From Heterostelium album PN500 (taxonomy: Eukaryota > Evosea > Eumycetozoa > Acytosteliales > Acytosteliaceae), in NCBI RefSeq assembly GCF_000004825.1, contig NW_008805104.1, forward strand, positions 62,001 through 126,000: a DNA stretch of 64,000 bases, given 5' to 3'. Under the pieces are notes generated by a model, which worked only from the letters and a program-made list of their open reading frames with translations, ran no database searches and was not told the origin of the DNA. A program made the position numbers and the translations under genes. Shown here piece after piece: positions 27,478 to 36,156 of the stretch; position 1 is the stretch's first letter, and every line of letters begins with the position of its first letter.

Positions 27478-28862
27478 TTAATTATTAATTTTAGATGGAT
27501 CAGCAGCCACGTATTTTGGTAGTCCTGTTGATTTGTCGATGAGCGATTCGGATTCATCTAGGATCTGTGGACCTGGACCAATCTTTGTGTGGAGGATATA
27601 TTTGAGAGAATCGGCAAAAGTGACCTCTGGTGCAAAGAGAGTCTGGATATTCTTTGGTGGTTGATAGTGTTCGATCTTTTCGATGTTGGACTTGTCGCTG
27701 CCTCTGTAGTAGGTGGAGAGATCGGAGCCTGGGAAGTGTTTGGTGAAGAGTGCCAACGCTTCGACGACGTTCTCCTCGGGCAAGTAGATGCAGGCGTTGG
27801 GACCGGCGTCAAAAGTGTAGGCGCACTTGATCTTTCCACTCATTTTGTTGTATTTGTGAACGAGGTTCATGATGTAACGCGATGTGTCGTTGAGGTAGTA
27901 GATGGCCGGGTCGGTAGTGGCGCACACCTCGTGGAAGTCGTCGGAATCCTTCATGGTGATATCACCGAATGTCTGGAAATCACGTGCCTGAATCGCAGCT
28001 TCGATGTCACGCATACGCTGTGGCACGATGGTGGCGCAACGCTCCTTCATCATCGGTGAGGTGGCGGCAGATCTCTGCATTCCATCGGTCGACGATGTCT
28101 CCTTCTTCTTGTCGTTGACGACGAGCACAATGATGTTCATCTCTGGCCAGTGAGTTTCCGGTGCAACTTGGACGGCGATCGAATCGGACCCGTCCGACTC
28201 GGCACCCATCTCCCACTTGACGAAACCACCGTAGACACTACGGCATGCACTACCGGAACCGATACGAGCGATCGCAGAGATGTCTCCACTCACTCCGTAG
28301 AGTTGTGCCAAAACGTACACCAAACAGGCGTATCCACTTGCCGAACTTGCCAAACCGGCTGCGGTTGGGAAATTGTTGATCGAACAAATGTGAACGAAAT
28401 GTTTCTTATCCATCAATTTAGTTGCACGTGATCTGATCATTCTCAATACATTTTGATAACGTGTTGTATTGATATCTTCTTTCCTTTAAATTATTAATAT
28501 AATATGTGTTGTTTTTTTTTTTTCAGAGTTAGAAAAATTGTAATTTTTCGTGTTTGAAATTATTTCTAAATAAAAGTGGTGACTATATATATATGGTATG
28601 TTTTTATATATAACATATATGTAATATTTTTATATACATACTTTCCATTCAACCAAATTGCATCTTCAGTGAAATTTTCAGATGCTACGGCAGTGGTTGT
28701 TGTTTTAAGATCGTCTTGATGTAAAGTACCACTGAGCGATGAATTGAGTGGTAAAATCAATTTTTCATCTCTCTTTCCCCAATATTTAATGGTTGCAATG
28801 TTAACTGGTGCTGTACAAGTAATTGATGACAACATTTTTTTACTACTACTACTCTTAGACAA
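27478..28862 (-). CDS. mvd: Mevalonate diphosphate decarboxylase
   Basis: Two exons (28862-28642 and 28483-27478), 408 residues, the usual length. It catalyses the ATP-dependent decarboxylation of mevalonate 5-diphosphate to isopentenyl diphosphate, the last step of the mevalonate pathway. Visible signatures: [20 protein letters not shown], the GHMP kinase ATP loop [22 protein letters not shown], and the catalytic Asp in [10 protein letters not shown]. Coding G+C is high compared with neighbours, consistent with strong expression. Start chosen as the first ATG; a second in-frame ATG nine codons later ([12 protein letters not shown]) fits the family start better and may be used. Confidence 0.97.
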
Positions 28863-29576
28863 ATAATAATAATACTAGTTACTTTCTTCTAATTTCTTAA
28901 AATATTTTAAATATTTTAGATAGATTTTTATATTATAGTGTATAGTGTAATATACAATTAAAATATATGTGAAAGATAAAAAAAAAGAGAGAAGAAGATA
29001 CTACTTTTTTTATTTATAAATTTGTTTTGTTTGGTTTTAGTTTTTTTAAAAAAGGAAAGATGTTTTTTTTTTTTTTGAAAATTTTTTTTAAAATAAGTTA
29101 TATGGTATGATTTTTGGCTCATTTGATCATATTATTAATACCCCCAATTTGTCAAAAACAAAAAAAAAAAGATAAAAAAACAACAATCTTGCTCATTGGT
29201 TGGTGCACTCACACCTTTATCAAAATCTCGTTGAGTAAATTTTGTTTTTTTGTCAAAACTATTAATTTTTATAAGATCTTTTATTTATAAATTGAAATAA
29301 ATTAGTTGTCATCCTATTAATTGTTTTATGTGTGTCTATTGTTTGTTTGTTGCCTATTGCAATTCATATCATATTAATAAAAACAATCGCTTAAATTATT
29401 ATTGAATTATTTTTATTTATTTGTTTTTTTTTTTAAAAAAAATAGCTCATAGTTCAATTTTTTTATTTTTATTTTTTGAATTAATCCATAATCCAAGAAG
29501 TCGACTGAAACAAGAAAACAGTTTGTTTTATTGGGTTTTGTTTTTTTTTTTTTTTTAATTTTTTCTATGAAATTTG
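28863..29576. other. Intergenic, T- and A-runs
   Basis: Very A/T-rich sequence with several T9-T16 runs. No coding signal. The segment from 29577 on belongs to the deiodinase 3' region described separately. Confidence 0.4.
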
Positions 29577-29712
29577 GTTGACAGAGATTGTTTGATGTTT
29601 CATCTCCATAGATTCTATGCAAAAAGAGATTGGGTAGTTGAACGAGAGAGACACACAGAGAGAGAGAGAGTAATTGTAACAATTATAATGCATTGTCGAT
29701 AATCCCACCAAC
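29577..29712 (-). other. Relict SECIS-like 3'UTR segment of the Cys deiodinase gene
   Basis: Read on the minus strand, this segment aligns with the candidate SECIS of the neighbouring Sec gene: both share the flanking GATATCAGTTGGT, and the 3' half TCTATGGAGATGAAA then CAAACAATCTCTGTC (neighbour: GCTATTGAGATGAAA). The 5' half differs. The ATGA core of the neighbour is ATTA here (29674-29671), and a CT/GT microsatellite (about 29645-29670) has expanded in the strand that would form helix II. The SECIS fold should therefore be lost. This lies roughly 170-300 nt after the stop codon of the Cys gene. Confidence 0.7.
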
Positions 29713-29883
29713 TGATATCATTCATATCTTGTTATCTGTTTTCAACAACAACAATAACATTTTTATTATTATAAACGAATTAATAATATTTATTTTATTA
29801 ATGAAGTATATATATATCTAATTATTCTATCTACTTTTCTGTCAAGATAATTCTTTTTTTTTTTTGTAAAAGTTTTGTTCAAT

Positions 29884-30777
29884 CTAGATTGAAGAGGGTT
29901 TGAATCTATCTATTAAGTAATCCCTAAGTTCTTCTGGAGTAGATTTAAATGGACCTGGACCACTAATATCATAATTCATTAGTTATTATTTTCGAAACCT
30001 TTCTATCCATTCATTAATACTTACCCAACATAAGAGAATTTCTTATTCTCCAACACAAAAAGACGTAGAGGAGTATTATCATATTTTTCATTAAAATTAT
30101 TGTCAATTAAATCGACTAGATAAGGAATGGAAACAGGACTAAATTTTTGCAGTGCTTCAACAATCTTTAATCTCTGTTGATTTAATAAGTAAATAAAATG
30201 TTATTGTTTGTATTATAAGTCGATATTTTCATTATTTCATTCATACCTCTTTCATTGTTTTTGGTTGTTTGTGAGCTGTACTGATTTCATCACCACCTAT
30301 AATCCAACCGTCGGCAGTATGTACTTCCGCCGTATATACAATGTAGAAGTCGCAATACTCTGCAAACTCATTGGCTATGGCCTGGATCAATTGCAACTTG
30401 TTACGGAATGGAATACAAGTGAAACTACCACAGTAGAGGACAATAGGTTTGGCATCTAGCTTCTCCATCATTCTATAGAGTGTTGTGTTTCCCTTCAAGT
30501 AGTACTCTATTTTGTCTGAACCGGTTTGGTAGTCTAGTAGAATCGCATCGGGACAGGTGTCGCCAGCCACTGGATAGCTATGTTTGTGAAACACATAGCT
30601 AAATAAAGACCATAGTTTATCATAATTCCCCCATAAGTTACTGGTTACAGTATTCCAGTAAAACCAAAGTGGTGGATTGAACCCATTCCTATAAATTGGA
30701 GGGATACTCTTCAAAATACTCTCATATGATTTATCATCTACAGCTTGATCTTGAATACAATTGGTACTACTATCCAT
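29884..30777 (-). CDS. Iodothyronine deiodinase-like protein, Cys form
   Basis: Exons 30777-30247, 30173-30025 and 29962-29884 give 252 residues. The thioredoxin-fold deiodinase core is clear: PIVLYCGSFTCIPF, AEYCDFYIVYTAEVHTADGW with the conserved His, then PYLVDLID, RLFVLENKKFSYVGGPGPF and PEELRDYL. The catalytic position, selenocysteine in most deiodinases, is Cys121 (TGT). No N-terminal membrane anchor is seen, unlike vertebrate enzymes. Tandem paralogue of the next gene, with the same two introns at the same positions. Deiodinases remove iodine from phenolic compounds; for an amoeba a general reductive dehalogenase or redox role is only inference. No in-frame ATG lies further upstream in this exon, but a short 5' exon cannot be ruled out. 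Confidence 0.88.
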
Positions 30778-31066
30778 TTCTTTTTGATCTGTCAATGATA
30801 AATAAATTATTAATAATATTAGAAGAATATATAAATAAATTAAACTAATATTATATATATATATTATAAATAATATTATTATATATATATAAATTAATTA
30901 AATAGTTAAATACCTCAAATTTCATAATTTTAACGGTGGTATATTAAGTGCATGTTGAAATAAAGAAAAAAACTCCTTTCATTTTTAAATCTATTATAAT
31001 TAATCTTTTTTATTTACTTTTAATAATATTATTTAATAAAATTATAACTCATAGTTTGAAGGTAAT
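30778..31066. other. Intergenic, A/T-rich
   Basis: Promoter region of the Cys deiodinase gene. Contains runs of TATA-like dinucleotides near 30850-30890. No gene. Confidence 0.4.
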
Positions 31067-31080
31067 GTCAATTAGGTAAA

Positions 31081-31110
31081 CAAAAAAGAAATCATATGAT
31101 TTCTTTTTTG
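31081..31110. repeat. Perfect 30-bp palindrome
   Basis: CAAAAAAGAAATCAT followed by its exact reverse complement. It lies downstream of the SECIS candidate of the Sec deiodinase gene (about 60 bp further 3') and could form a hairpin near the transcript end. Confidence 0.8.
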
Positions 31111-31166
31111 TTTTTTTTGAATTGATAGTGATTATTGTTGGGTTTTCAAAACATATGAGATAACAG

Positions 31167-31262
31167 AGTGGTTGATGACAGAGATTGTTTAATATTTCAT
31201 CTCAATAGCTTCTAATTAAAGATTAGGCAGTTGAGAGTCATTACAATGTCAATCTACCAACT
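31167..31262 (-). promoter_or_regulatory. Candidate SECIS element (selenocysteine insertion)
   Basis: Read on the minus strand, about 100 nt after the stop codon. It shows the eukaryotic SECIS order: ATGA at 31241-31238, an unpaired AA at 31224-31223 about 13 nt later, and TGA at 31199-31197. The two cores directly flank a helix of TCTCAA (31236-31231) with TTGAGA (31205-31200), so the tandem G-A quartet would sit at its base. A basal helix could form from GACATTG upstream and CAATCTCTGTC downstream. Helix II is short and interrupted, so folding software is needed. Confidence 0.7.
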
Positions 31263-31357
31263 GATATCTTGTTATTAATTTCTTAAAAATAGTATTCTTT
31301 TTTAAATAATGAATTAGTTATTCTCTAGGCCTGTTCTTACTTGATTCACTGTTAACT

Positions 31358-32349
31358 CTAGTTTGTTGATGGTAGAGCAGATGCTTTAAATCTCTTTGTT
31401 AAATACTCCTTAAGTTCTTCTGGAATAAATTTAAAAGGACCTGGACCACTGAAATAATTGATTAATTAAATGTGATATTTCAAATCGATTAATTAATTTA
31501 TATAGTTTTAATACTTTACCCAACATAAGAGAATTTCTTATTCTCTAATACAAAAAGACGTTCTGGAATAGCATCATATTTTGCATTGAAACCATTGTCA
31601 ATTAAATCAACTAGATAGGGAATGGTAACAGGACTATACTCTTGTAATGCTTTAACTATATTTAATCTCTGTTAAATTTGTAGAGTTAAAAAAAAGAGGT
31701 TAATTATAAAAACATATCCTTTAGAAAAATGAATAGGATTATTTCTTACTTCTTTCATTGTTTTTGGTTGTTTGTAACATGTACTGATTTCATCGCCACC
31801 GATAACCCAACCATCGACGGGATGCATCTCAGCAAGATACAATATGTAGAATTGGCAATACTCTGCGAATTCATTGGCTATGGCCTGGAACATAACCATC
31901 TTATCACGGAATGGAGGTCAAGTGTAACTTCCACAGAAAAGAACAACAGGCTTGGCATCGTTCTTCTCCATCAGGCTGTAGAGTGAGGTATTTCCCTTCA
32001 AGTAGTACTCTATCTTGTCGGAACCTGTCTGGTAGTCTAGTAGCATAGCATTGGGACAGGTGTCGCCAGCCACTGGATCAATGTGTTTACGATACATATG
32101 GGTATAGATATGCGATAGTTTGCCAAATCCATACTTCCAAAAGTCACTAAAGAAAACATTGAGCAGCTCCCAACGAGATGGATGGAATCCATTCTTATAA
32201 ACAGGATCTATGTTTTCAAAAACACTATCGCATTGCTTATTAACTACACATTCTTGTCCAGCAACACCACTACAAGATTCAAATGAATCATTATCCTTTT
32301 TTAAAATGCTACCAGTATCCGATTCTTTTCTATCTATTTTTTCAGTCAT
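31358..32349 (-). CDS. Iodothyronine deiodinase-like selenoprotein (UGA = Sec)
   Basis: Exons 32349-31750, 31668-31520 and 31448-31358 give 279 residues if the in-frame TGA at 31920-31918 is read through. That TGA is codon 144 and sits exactly at the active site: VVLFCGSYT-U-PPFRDKM, the GS-x-T-U-P-x-F motif of deiodinases. After it the frame continues with no loss of conservation (NEFAEYCQFYILYLAEMHPV, DGWVIGG), across both introns to the C terminus. A SECIS-like structure follows about 100 nt after the stop. Together these indicate a selenoprotein rather than a pseudogene. Intron positions are identical to the Cys paralogue. Deiodinase-like selenoproteins are, to my knowledge, reported in dictyostelids; substrate in amoebae unclear. 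Confidence 0.9.
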
Positions 32350-32717
32350 ATAAAAAAATTAAAAAGATAAAAAAAAAAAAGATATAAATATCTTATATAT
32401 CTATATCTTTAATTTATTTATTGAAATGAAAATGAAAATGAAAAATGAAGATTATTATCAATGTAGATTTAATTAAATTAAATTCAAAATTCAATAAATA
32501 AATAGATAATTATTGTTTTGGTTTAACCCATTATCAAACAATGAAAAAAATGGTAATGGGGTGTTTTGTCATTTTATCAAAGATTTATTGGTTGGTATAG
32601 GAATTGGTCAGTGACATTTTTTAATTTGAAAGGTTGAATTAAAGCTTATTAAACCTCTTTATGTTCATTTGTTTTTTTTTTTAAATATTATTATAAAAAG
32701 ATATTAATTTATTTTAT
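32350..32717. other. Intergenic spacer
   Basis: A/T-rich; promoter of the Sec deiodinase gene and 3' end region of the LSG1 gene. No further feature seen. Confidence 0.4.
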
Positions 32718-34768
32718 TTATGATGACGTTGATGTGGTAGTTGTGGTGGTTGTTGTGGTAGTTGAAGTTTCTGATTGTGATGATGATGATGATGATGATG
32801 ATTCTTGTTTTTGTTGTTTTAATTTTAATGCCATATCTTTAAGAGCTTGTTCTTTCAGGTGTAACTTTTGTAGTCTGGTGGAAATCGATTCTTCATTGTG
32901 TACGTAGACCGGTCTTGTAAATCTAACATCTTCACCGGTGACCTGTTTCTTTTTCTTGTTCTTCTGAGACTTTGTTTTGGCAATGACATTCTGTTGTACA
33001 TCGTAGTTACTTTCACTCTCTACACTGACGTCGTAGGTCATCTTTTTCTTCTCTTTGATTACCGGTGCGGTTCCGTTGGCGGCGCTCAAAGCTGCTGCTG
33101 CCGCTTCAACGGCGGACTTTTGTTTTCTCTGGAATTTCTCGGCGTCGTATCCTGGAGGTGGATGACAGTAGAGCAGCTTTCCGGCGACAAAGTCCTTCAA
33201 TATGATACGGGCGGCACGCGACTGGTCGGGAGCACCGTGCACAGTCATGAAACCACGCATGTACGCGTAGACCGACAGCACCTCGGCACCTGTGGGGGGA
33301 CGGTCTTGTGGCTCGTGCTCCTTTGGCTTGGGGATACCGATGGAGTAGACCTCCTCGATGTAGGAACGGGCGACCTTCTCACAGATGGCGTCGACCGGCG
33401 ACACAAAGTCACGCAACTGGTCGATTGGCAGCAGACCGTTGATGACCATCTCTGCCTTGGACGACAAAAGTGTTGGGAAAACTAGACCCGGACAATCGAG
33501 CAGAACGACGTCGTCGTCGACAATGATGGTCTGTACGTATTTTGTTTTACCGGGTGTTGGCGCGACGGCGACTTTCTTCTCACCGTAGAGCACGTTGATC
33601 GTACTGGACTTACCGACGTTGGGATAACCAGAGAGACCGACAACGATACGACCGTCGAAACGATTCTCTTGGAGTGGCGCGGGACACAGTTTCTTGAATT
33701 CCTCGAGAATCTCTTCGCGAGTGTAGATCTTGATTTCCTTGTCTTCGGCGGCGTTGTTTCCCTCGATGGCGCGACGTGTCTCTTCGATATCGATGTCGGC
33801 ACCCTCATCGATCAAACGGTAGATCTGCTTCATCTTTTCAATCTTTAGCTGCTCTTTGTGCGCAGAGAAGAATCGATAGTTTATATTCTCCGAGGCAAAG
33901 TATTGTGCCCACTTTCTACGCTGTGCCTTTGTGAGAAGATCGGCCTTGTTCACAATCAACAAGTTGGTCTTCTTTACATTCAGCTCCTTTGCGTATCTCT
34001 CGAGATCCGGTGAACGGAACAACAATGGATTACGAGCATCGACAATCTGCACCAAAATATCACTCTTTTCTGTAACTCTCCAAAGTTGTTTCCAGACTTC
34101 CGGATTCTTTTCGAATGGAGTTATAATTAAACCTTCATCTTCTTCCAACCTATATAGATCAGTTGTTAAATATTATCAAGTTAATAAAAGTTGATTTGTT
34201 TTAGTTTTGTTTCTTTCTTACTTTGCTAATGATCTTCTCCAATTGTAGAATGATGTTTTCTCATTTTCAAGGAGTTGTTCGGTGGTTGTGTTTTCATCCC
34301 AGTACGGTCTTCTTGGTACGGTCAATGAATTCCAAAATTGATTGTTCTTTTCCTGTAGTTTCTTGTGCTCCTGTGTCTTTGCTTCTCTTTCTTCCTTTGA
34401 GAGTACAGTTGAGGTTGTCTTCATCAACACAACTACATTCTGTTTCTCTGCTTCGAAAATCTTTTGTTCCATCTCTGAAACCTCCAAGAAGTTCGCCAAC
34501 TGATTGTTCTGATCTGTATTTGAATATAATTTCTTTCTTTCATCTTTTGGATCTATATCAGTTGTATACATCTATAATAATAGTAGATAATAATAATGAT
34601 CAAGAAACAAAAATATTAGTTTCAATCTCGTCATTCTCCCAAACAACAACAACAACAACGACATACAGCAACAGTTTCTTGATTAATATTTCTACCAAGT
34701 TTCTTATTTCTTGATTTAATCAATACACGACCAAGAGATGCATCACTTTTCTTTGATTTTGGTGCCAT
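32718..34768 (-). CDS. lsg1: LSG1-type 60S ribosome export GTPase
   Basis: Exons 34768-34667, 34571-34222 and 34149-32718 give 627 residues. A circularly permuted GTPase: the G4 motif NKADLL (about residue 217) comes before G1 GYPNVGKSSTINVL (about 324), followed by G2/G3 TPGKTKYVQT and DCPGLVFP. The N terminus MAPKSKKSDASLGRVLIKSR, WRRSLAK and the C-terminal Lys-rich and Ser/Thr-rich tail fit the LSG1 family. LSG1 acts in the cytoplasm in late 60S subunit maturation, releasing the export adaptor NMD3. Coding region is unusually G+C-rich for the window. Confidence 0.95.
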
Positions 34769-35240: not shown

Positions 35241-36156
35241 TTAAAGTGTTTTAAATTCAGTACTTGTAACTCTCCAACCAAAGTTTACTTTCTTTTCGAT
35301 TGTTATCAATGCGAATCTGGAGAATTTAAGTGGGCCTGGGTTAACTATTTGTGTTTTACGGTGGGTTGACATTCCCGGACTGAAGTGGGTGTGACCGTGA
35401 ATGTTTAGGAAGATCTGATCGTTGTGCTCCGCAATGAAGGTGTCGAGTAATTTGCTACCGCTATGAATCGGTTCGACCGATGTATCGAGACGATCGATTG
35501 TGGTTGTCGATGAGTCGGGTCCGACGTGTGTCATCAGCAACACCGAGTCATTCTCTTTGATGGAGCCGGACGACGACGCTTCTCTCCAGGTGGCGTCTAG
35601 CTCTGACTTTAGCTGAGAGTCACTCTTGAACGGATAGCCTACCCATACTTCTTTGTCACCGCGGTAACCCGGGAGACTTCCACCAAGACCGAGCAACACT
35701 AGATCCTCAGCGATTCTAATGGTGTGACGATGCGCATTGCGAGCAAAGTTGGTGAGACGCGGACGTTTGTCGAGTGCGTTCAACAGCGTTGTTTTGGCAT
35801 CGTGGTTACCAGGCACATAGATAACATTGTAGTGTATGTTCTCTAGCATCTGTAGAGCGGTACTCATCTCACCCTCACAGACATAGACCTTCTCCATTTG
35901 ATCCTCTTCCATCGGATCGAAATTTGCAATATCTCCACTACACAATACATAATCCAATCTAGATCAATTACAATCACAATCAAATATAAATAACAAAGTT
36001 AGTAGTTGTATATATACAATAACAATAGAATATTACATACTTTTCTTTATTTTCAGATATATATTTACCAAGAGCATTTAGATTTTCATAATGTAAATGT
36101 AAGTCTGTTGCTAACAATATTCTTAATTTTGTTTTATTAATATTATTATTTTCCAT
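35241..36156 (-). CDS. Calcineurin-like metallophosphoesterase
   Basis: Exons 36156-36041 and 35958-35241 give 277 residues. The metal-binding motifs are all present in order: DLHLH, GDIAN, GNHD, THVGPD and the final GHTH. The first two motifs flank the intron, confirming the join. No signal peptide. The family hydrolyses phosphoesters; the closest subgroup (UPF/YfcE-like small MPEs) has varied substrates, so no specific reaction can be assigned. Confidence 0.92.

Follow-up and report, generated by a model that had tools for sequence, protein, structure and literature searches.

A gene on the minus strand of the stretch of DNA analysed here (64,000 nucleotides, termed the window), running from position 32349 to 31358, very probably encodes a selenocysteine (Sec) deiodinase-like enzyme of the PF00837 family, in which a UGA codon would be decoded as Sec by means of a SECIS element, and the tandem neighbour of this gene, which carries Cys, would have arisen from a Sec ancestor. 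The open frame, the position of the UGA, a SECIS-like element in the 3′ UTR and genes for the Sec machinery are all present in the genome. A broken SECIS behind the Cys copy suggests the direction in which the pair has changed.

A deiodinase-like frame with TGA at the catalytic codon

The gene is composed of three exons separated by GT-AG introns (Table 1), and its spliced frame of 840 nt specifies 279 residues (an estimated 32 kDa or so) followed by a TAG stop codon. Its sole internal stop is a TGA within the sequence CGSYT-TGA-PPF. The spliced protein scores 102.7 bits with the Pfam model for iodothyronine deiodinase (PF00837; cut-off 27), and the match extends over residues 121-269. Furthermore, the frame can be aligned, straight through the TGA, with the crystallised chains of DIO2 (9h48; E 2.3e-21, residues 129-271) and DIO3 (4tr3; E 8.5e-19, residues 131-268), which are the only two distinct PDB sequences that match the gene at E up to 0.001. 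In both chains Cys presumably replaces the native Sec. The TGA falls at this catalytic deiodinase position, with the frame kept on either side. When the amoeba's own genome was searched exon by exon with PF00837 at E up to 0.001, only this gene and its tandem Cys copy were matched.

These results bear out a first-pass annotation made from the sequence, which had described an otherwise intact three-exon frame with a TGA as its single stop, located at the selenocysteine position of deiodinases between GSYT and PPF, and a tandem paralogue with Cys (TGT) at the matching codon. The coordinates given there are exact, and the deiodinase model that it proposed for the spliced frame gives a score over the cut-off.

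Pfam also identifies three neighbours on the same strand, namely a mevalonate diphosphate decarboxylase (27479-28485), an MMR_HSR1 GTPase (32719-34172) and a metallophosphoesterase (35242-35963).

Table 1. Features of the tandem deiodinase-like genes, in window positions
Feature	Position	Strand	Remarks
Deiodinase-like gene with predicted Sec, exon 1	31750..32349	-	200 codons, TGA among them; PF00837 102.7 bits (spliced protein)
In-frame TGA, codon 144, predicted to be read as Sec	31918..31920	-	aligned with catalytic position of DIO2/DIO3 chains
Deiodinase-like gene with predicted Sec, exon 2	31520..31668	-	spliced frame
Deiodinase-like gene with predicted Sec, exon 3	31358..31448	-	TAG at end
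SECIS-like element, 3′ UTR of Sec gene	31190..31246	-	UGUAAUGAC, helix II 8/10 pairs, CUAA apical bulge, UGAAA
Tandem Cys paralogue, exon 1	30247..30777	-	PF00837 93.7 bits
Cys codon TGT, corresponding to the TGA of the upstream gene	30415..30417	-	codon alignment
Tandem Cys paralogue, exon 2	30025..30173	-	spliced frame
Tandem Cys paralogue, exon 3	29884..29962	-	TAG at end
Broken SECIS, 3′ UTR of Cys paralogue	29579..29719	-	3′ arm kept, best stretch 29641-29579; CT-rich run inserted

A SECIS-like element in the 3′ UTR

The features of a eukaryotic SECIS (AUGA/GA core, helix II and AA bulge) are found in the 3′ UTR of the Sec gene, in an element that starts 111 bases 3′ of the stop codon. 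The surrounding region (31275-31150) folds with a z score of -3.25, and one of 200 shuffles was as stable. In the minimum-free-energy fold of the element, CUAAU pairs with AUUAG, an arrangement in which the AA bulge would be hidden. A search of positions 29300-32800 with Rfam at E up to 10 returned seven matches, none of them a SECIS, which we treat as a limit of the Rfam library. Because of this competing fold and the missing Rfam match, we compared the element with others of the same genome.

The 32.9 Mb genome was scanned with a pattern consisting of UGUAAUGA, AA and UGAAA, in which helix II pairing had no part; helix II pairs were counted by script. The UGUA, AUGA and AA of this pattern come from the literature, and the choice of UGAAA as its end and of its spacings followed inspection of the deiodinase, SPS2 and Sep15 elements. 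Since the pattern was partly fitted to these three elements, the fact that they match it is no test, and only the helix count is taken as one. The scan yielded 54 matches, compared with 20 for the reversed pattern. Five of the 54 have at least eight of ten helix II pairs, a level reached by 1.05% of shuffled interiors (equivalent to about 0.6 of 54). All five are located behind genes with an in-frame TGA, specifically Sep15, SPS2, the deiodinase and two glutathione peroxidases. The deiodinase element has the fewest helix II pairs among them (8/10). Over the five elements, standard pairs occupy 47 of 50 helix II cells, in contrast to 61 of 180 when the arms of unrelated elements are crossed, and every one of the ten positions exhibits two to five different standard pair types.

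We also constructed a model (R2) from the SPS2 element and the two glutathione peroxidase elements, leaving the deiodinase element out; two of its three members had been found with the scan pattern. R2 ranks the deiodinase element first in the window with 27.3 bits (E 0.0037), the next match having 16.4, and it assigns 27.8 bits to the Sep15 element, which was also left out. This is the test that counts, as a model built from the deiodinase and SPS2 elements (R1) gives the deiodinase element 63.6 bits by circular reasoning.

Two other patterns were tried and set aside. The first, with a GATGA end, was not specific (122 matches, 70 when reversed). The second, derived from the deiodinase and SPS2 elements, gave three matches and none when reversed, and is not an independent test. 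Its third match (C17) straddles the stop at the end of a frame of 92 residues that has no TGA and receives 14.5 bits from R1, and was rejected.

Selenocysteine machinery and other predicted selenoprotein genes

The first-pass annotation had named the Sec machinery as one place where its reading could fail. Genes for every factor sought were found in the genome. A tRNA-Sec gene with anticodon tca scores 66.5 bits (cut-off 47) with a model that also finds matches in all 14 prokaryote controls, five of them over the cut-off. SPS2 scores 179.5 bits (cut-off 125); the selD model likewise matches every one of the 14 prokaryote controls, two of them above its cut-off. SepSecS is represented by matches of 215.5 and 193.1 bits. 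A single open frame of 132 residues in locus L012 corresponds to eEFSec: among the matches listed (the best 60 of 95), the highest are 5izk and 7zjw, both eEFSec, at E 1e-30, followed by SelB at 1.3e-17. SBP2 is likewise recognized from one open frame, whose sole match is 7zjw (E 9.4e-25). None of the 25 genome matches to selB is over the NCBIfam cut-off, and the top one, in locus L005, looks on reading like mitochondrial EF-Tu and was rejected as eEFSec.

Several other genes of this genome would also encode selenoproteins. The SPS2 gene (locus L004) carries an in-frame TGA at 1298-1300, in the context KLKG-U-GCK, and a SECIS-like element at 2658-2716 that has CUAAUCUU in common with the element of the unrelated deiodinase gene. 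Sep15 (L055, minus strand), whose match, at E 0.00194, contains one TGA and so escaped a search limited to E 0.001 by its score, has its TGA at 1578-1576 (CR-U-KLG) and a SECIS-like element at 1132-1075 whose ten helix II positions all pair. Two tandem glutathione peroxidases, first turned up by the SECIS scan, occupy 2744-5800 of L088 (G000 C15, about 65.7-68.8 kb). Both have TGA at the catalytic codon (NTASF-U-GMT and NTATF-U-GMT) and SECIS-like elements in which nine or all ten helix II pairs are present; judged from a hydrophobic N-terminus noticed on reading, they are perhaps secreted. A SelK-like gene (L057, around 1500-1900) ends in G-TGA-AR-TAA (G-U-AR), and no UGUAAUGA-type SECIS could be found behind it. 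As far as the available part of the paper goes, the five selenoproteins listed for Dictyostelium discoideum do not include a Sec glutathione peroxidase (PMC2375036). Since such genes are present here, these amoebae may not all have the same set of selenoproteins.

A route for decoding can be proposed from the established eukaryotic Sec pathway. Once the gene is expressed, the SECIS, some 110 bases past the stop codon, would recruit SBP2, which would bring eEFSec carrying Sec-tRNA with anticodon UCA, and codon 144 would thereby be translated as Sec. SepSecS and SPS2 would supply the charged tRNA. The selenol may then serve as the nucleophile of the enzyme, in a reductive dehalogenation or another redox reaction.

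Two other fates of the UGA can be imagined, namely readthrough with another standard residue, or termination to give a 143-residue protein with some regulatory role. UGA followed by C, the arrangement in this gene, is a readthrough-prone context. However, a product ending at codon 143 would be without most of the catalytic domain, and both proposals are at odds with the SECIS-like element and with the presence of all of the Sec factors that were sought (tRNA-Sec, eEFSec, SBP2, SepSecS and SPS2). We consider either fate extremely improbable.

A tandem copy with Cys in place of the TGA

The Cys copy encodes 252 residues, lies downstream on the same strand, and has both of its intron positions in common with the Sec gene. 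The proteins are identical at 63 of 120 aligned residues before codon 144 and at 97 of 131 after it, and dN/dS (NG86) falls from 0.57 in the first part to 0.31 in the second. Synonymous sites differ by about 37-41%. The introns of the two copies barely align, with best local scores of 16 and 22 against shuffle means of 16.4 and 19.0. After the codon there are 56 columns at which DIO2 and DIO3 agree, and the TGA copy retains 27 of them compared with 25 for the Cys copy. The TGA copy thus drifts no faster than its neighbour, the difference between 27 and 25 being too small to say more. Before the codon, either copy keeps five of nine such columns.

At the start of the Cys copy (30795-30777), on reading, TTG seems to stand in the place of the ATG of the Sec copy; the frame is open upstream, and the first ATG lies further in.

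The comparison is relevant to the proposal that the TGA is a nonsense mutation in a young pseudogene and that the Cys copy is the functional gene. One base separates the copies at this codon, and a pseudogene of recent origin would look intact downstream. In neutral trials in which half of the observed changes were placed randomly after the codon, 18.8% of 5000 remained free of stops, and therefore the stop-free downstream frame is weak evidence on its own. Nevertheless, the stop sits at the one codon where a Sec codon is expected, the part after it is the better conserved one, and a SECIS-like element is found behind the TGA gene whereas the broken one belongs to the Cys copy. A pseudogene is very unlikely on this evidence. 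The assertion of the first-pass annotation that conservation runs on past the TGA agrees with the two identity values, and its preference for a Sec codon over a decaying gene gains support from the SECIS-like element, the Sec-machinery genes and the DIO alignment.

A decayed SECIS and the probable direction of change

Local alignment of the Cys-copy 3′ UTR to the region that holds the SECIS-like element of the Sec copy gives a score of 64, compared with scores of 39 or less in 1000 shuffles and 30 or less in 404 other stretches of the window. The best local stretch has 51 identities in 59 ungapped columns plus four gap columns (counted by eye). Where the 5′ core should align there is no AUGA, a CT-rich run has been inserted, and the 3′ arm is kept. 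With filters off, R2 gives no match above 6.1 bits in this 3′ UTR.

We know of no purpose that a SECIS serves in a gene without an in-frame UGA. Because the Cys copy retains a broken one, Sec is probably the older state of the gene pair and Cys the derived one. The two 3′ UTRs also speak to the idea that the TGA is a sequencing error and that the true codon is Cys, as in the neighbour. A SECIS-like element would be purposeless behind a Cys codon, and behind the Cys copy it has in fact decayed; an error of this kind is hardly credible.

A Sec ancestor may thus have been duplicated in tandem, with one copy later exchanging Sec for Cys and its SECIS subsequently decaying, as the relic suggests. 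What is preserved of the relic has evolved at a slower pace than the introns and the synonymous sites, as is evident when its identity is set beside introns that barely align and synonymous sites that differ at more than a third. Most simply, the Cys copy would have remained dependent on Sec long after the duplication; alternatively, gene conversion of the UTR could account for so well kept a relic. We lean towards a Sec-to-Cys switch caught part-way, in which both tandem copies were long Sec-dependent before one of them became a selenium-independent Cys enzyme. If this is true, selenium-dependent and selenium-independent versions of one enzyme would be present side by side in the cell.

An AT-rich perfect palindrome with two 16-base arms was noticed on reading at 31080-31111, in the interval that separates the deiodinase SECIS from the Cys copy. 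The only matches that Rfam has for this sequence are weak ones to MIR5998.

Comparison with known deiodinases and SECIS relics

Deiodinases are best known from animals, and Sec and Cys copies adjoin here. The pair, differing at the same codon within one amoeba genome, therefore constitutes a natural experiment on what selenium adds and on how Sec is lost.

Vertebrate iodothyronine deiodinases possess an N-terminal membrane anchor. No clear hydrophobic anchor was found in either copy (best 19-residue Kyte-Doolittle means of 0.79 for the Sec protein and 0.90 for the Cys protein), and in this respect the Sec-gene protein differs from the vertebrate type. It shares with DIO2 and DIO3 the PF00837 domain, the motifs GS-x-T-U-PPF and HPxDGW, and a C-terminal GG-x-GP stretch, and is identical to them at 46 of 143 and 43 of 135 aligned residues, respectively.

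The closest precedent comes from D. discoideum. In the available part of their report, Lobanov and colleagues describe a homologue of thyroid hormone deiodinase that has UGA-coded Sec and a 75Se-labelled band of the corresponding size, and a UGUA that precedes the core of Dictyostelium SECIS elements (PMC2375036). The present gene has both the UGA and a 3′ SECIS-like element with UGUA before the core, but is accompanied by a tandem Cys duplicate whose SECIS is broken. When compared with the descriptions in the same partly available paper, the elements differ in the apical bulge (CUAA here, by reading; AAA in D. discoideum), in the mismatch beside the core (C-U here, by reading; U-U in D. discoideum) and in the mini-stem, which is called extremely long in the D. 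discoideum deiodinase SECIS (PMC2375036).

The D. discoideum homologue is named didA (DDB_G0275741) in the accessible portion of another study, which states that DIF dechlorinase activity is normal in didA nulls, with the data not shown there (PMC3205185); DIF is accordingly a weak candidate for the substrate. It is probably the gene called dio3 elsewhere. Thyroid hormones, according to the part of the selenoprotein paper available to us, are not known in amoebae (PMC2375036). A 2026 paper, likewise available in part, reports that the tRNA-Sec gene of D. discoideum is apparently repressed at all stages analysed (PMC13063481), which bears on how strongly such genes are expressed. Our literature search, which mostly covered papers outside subscription journals, found no report on the selenoproteins of Polysphondylium (Heterostelium) pallidum.

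Cys deiodinases, resembling the downstream copy in having Cys for Sec, have been described in Nematostella (PMC3473315) and in marine bacteria (PMC1088965); the available parts of those papers do not describe Sec and Cys genes arranged in tandem with a remnant SECIS. Fossil SECIS elements of SelK in Drosophila persimilis and D. willistoni (PMC2500217, available in part) similarly represent a decayed SECIS behind a selenoprotein gene. That case rests on a comparison between species, whereas the genome studied here still contains the Sec copy, right beside the Cys one.

UGA-coded deiodinases were therefore already known as a kind, from the available part of the D. discoideum work (PMC2375036), and the present gene adds a member. 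The SECIS-like element in its 3′ UTR and the broken SECIS of the Cys copy are new beyond the first-pass annotation. What is less expected in this setting is that the gene has a Cys twin followed by a SECIS relic, and that two Sec glutathione peroxidases occur in tandem.
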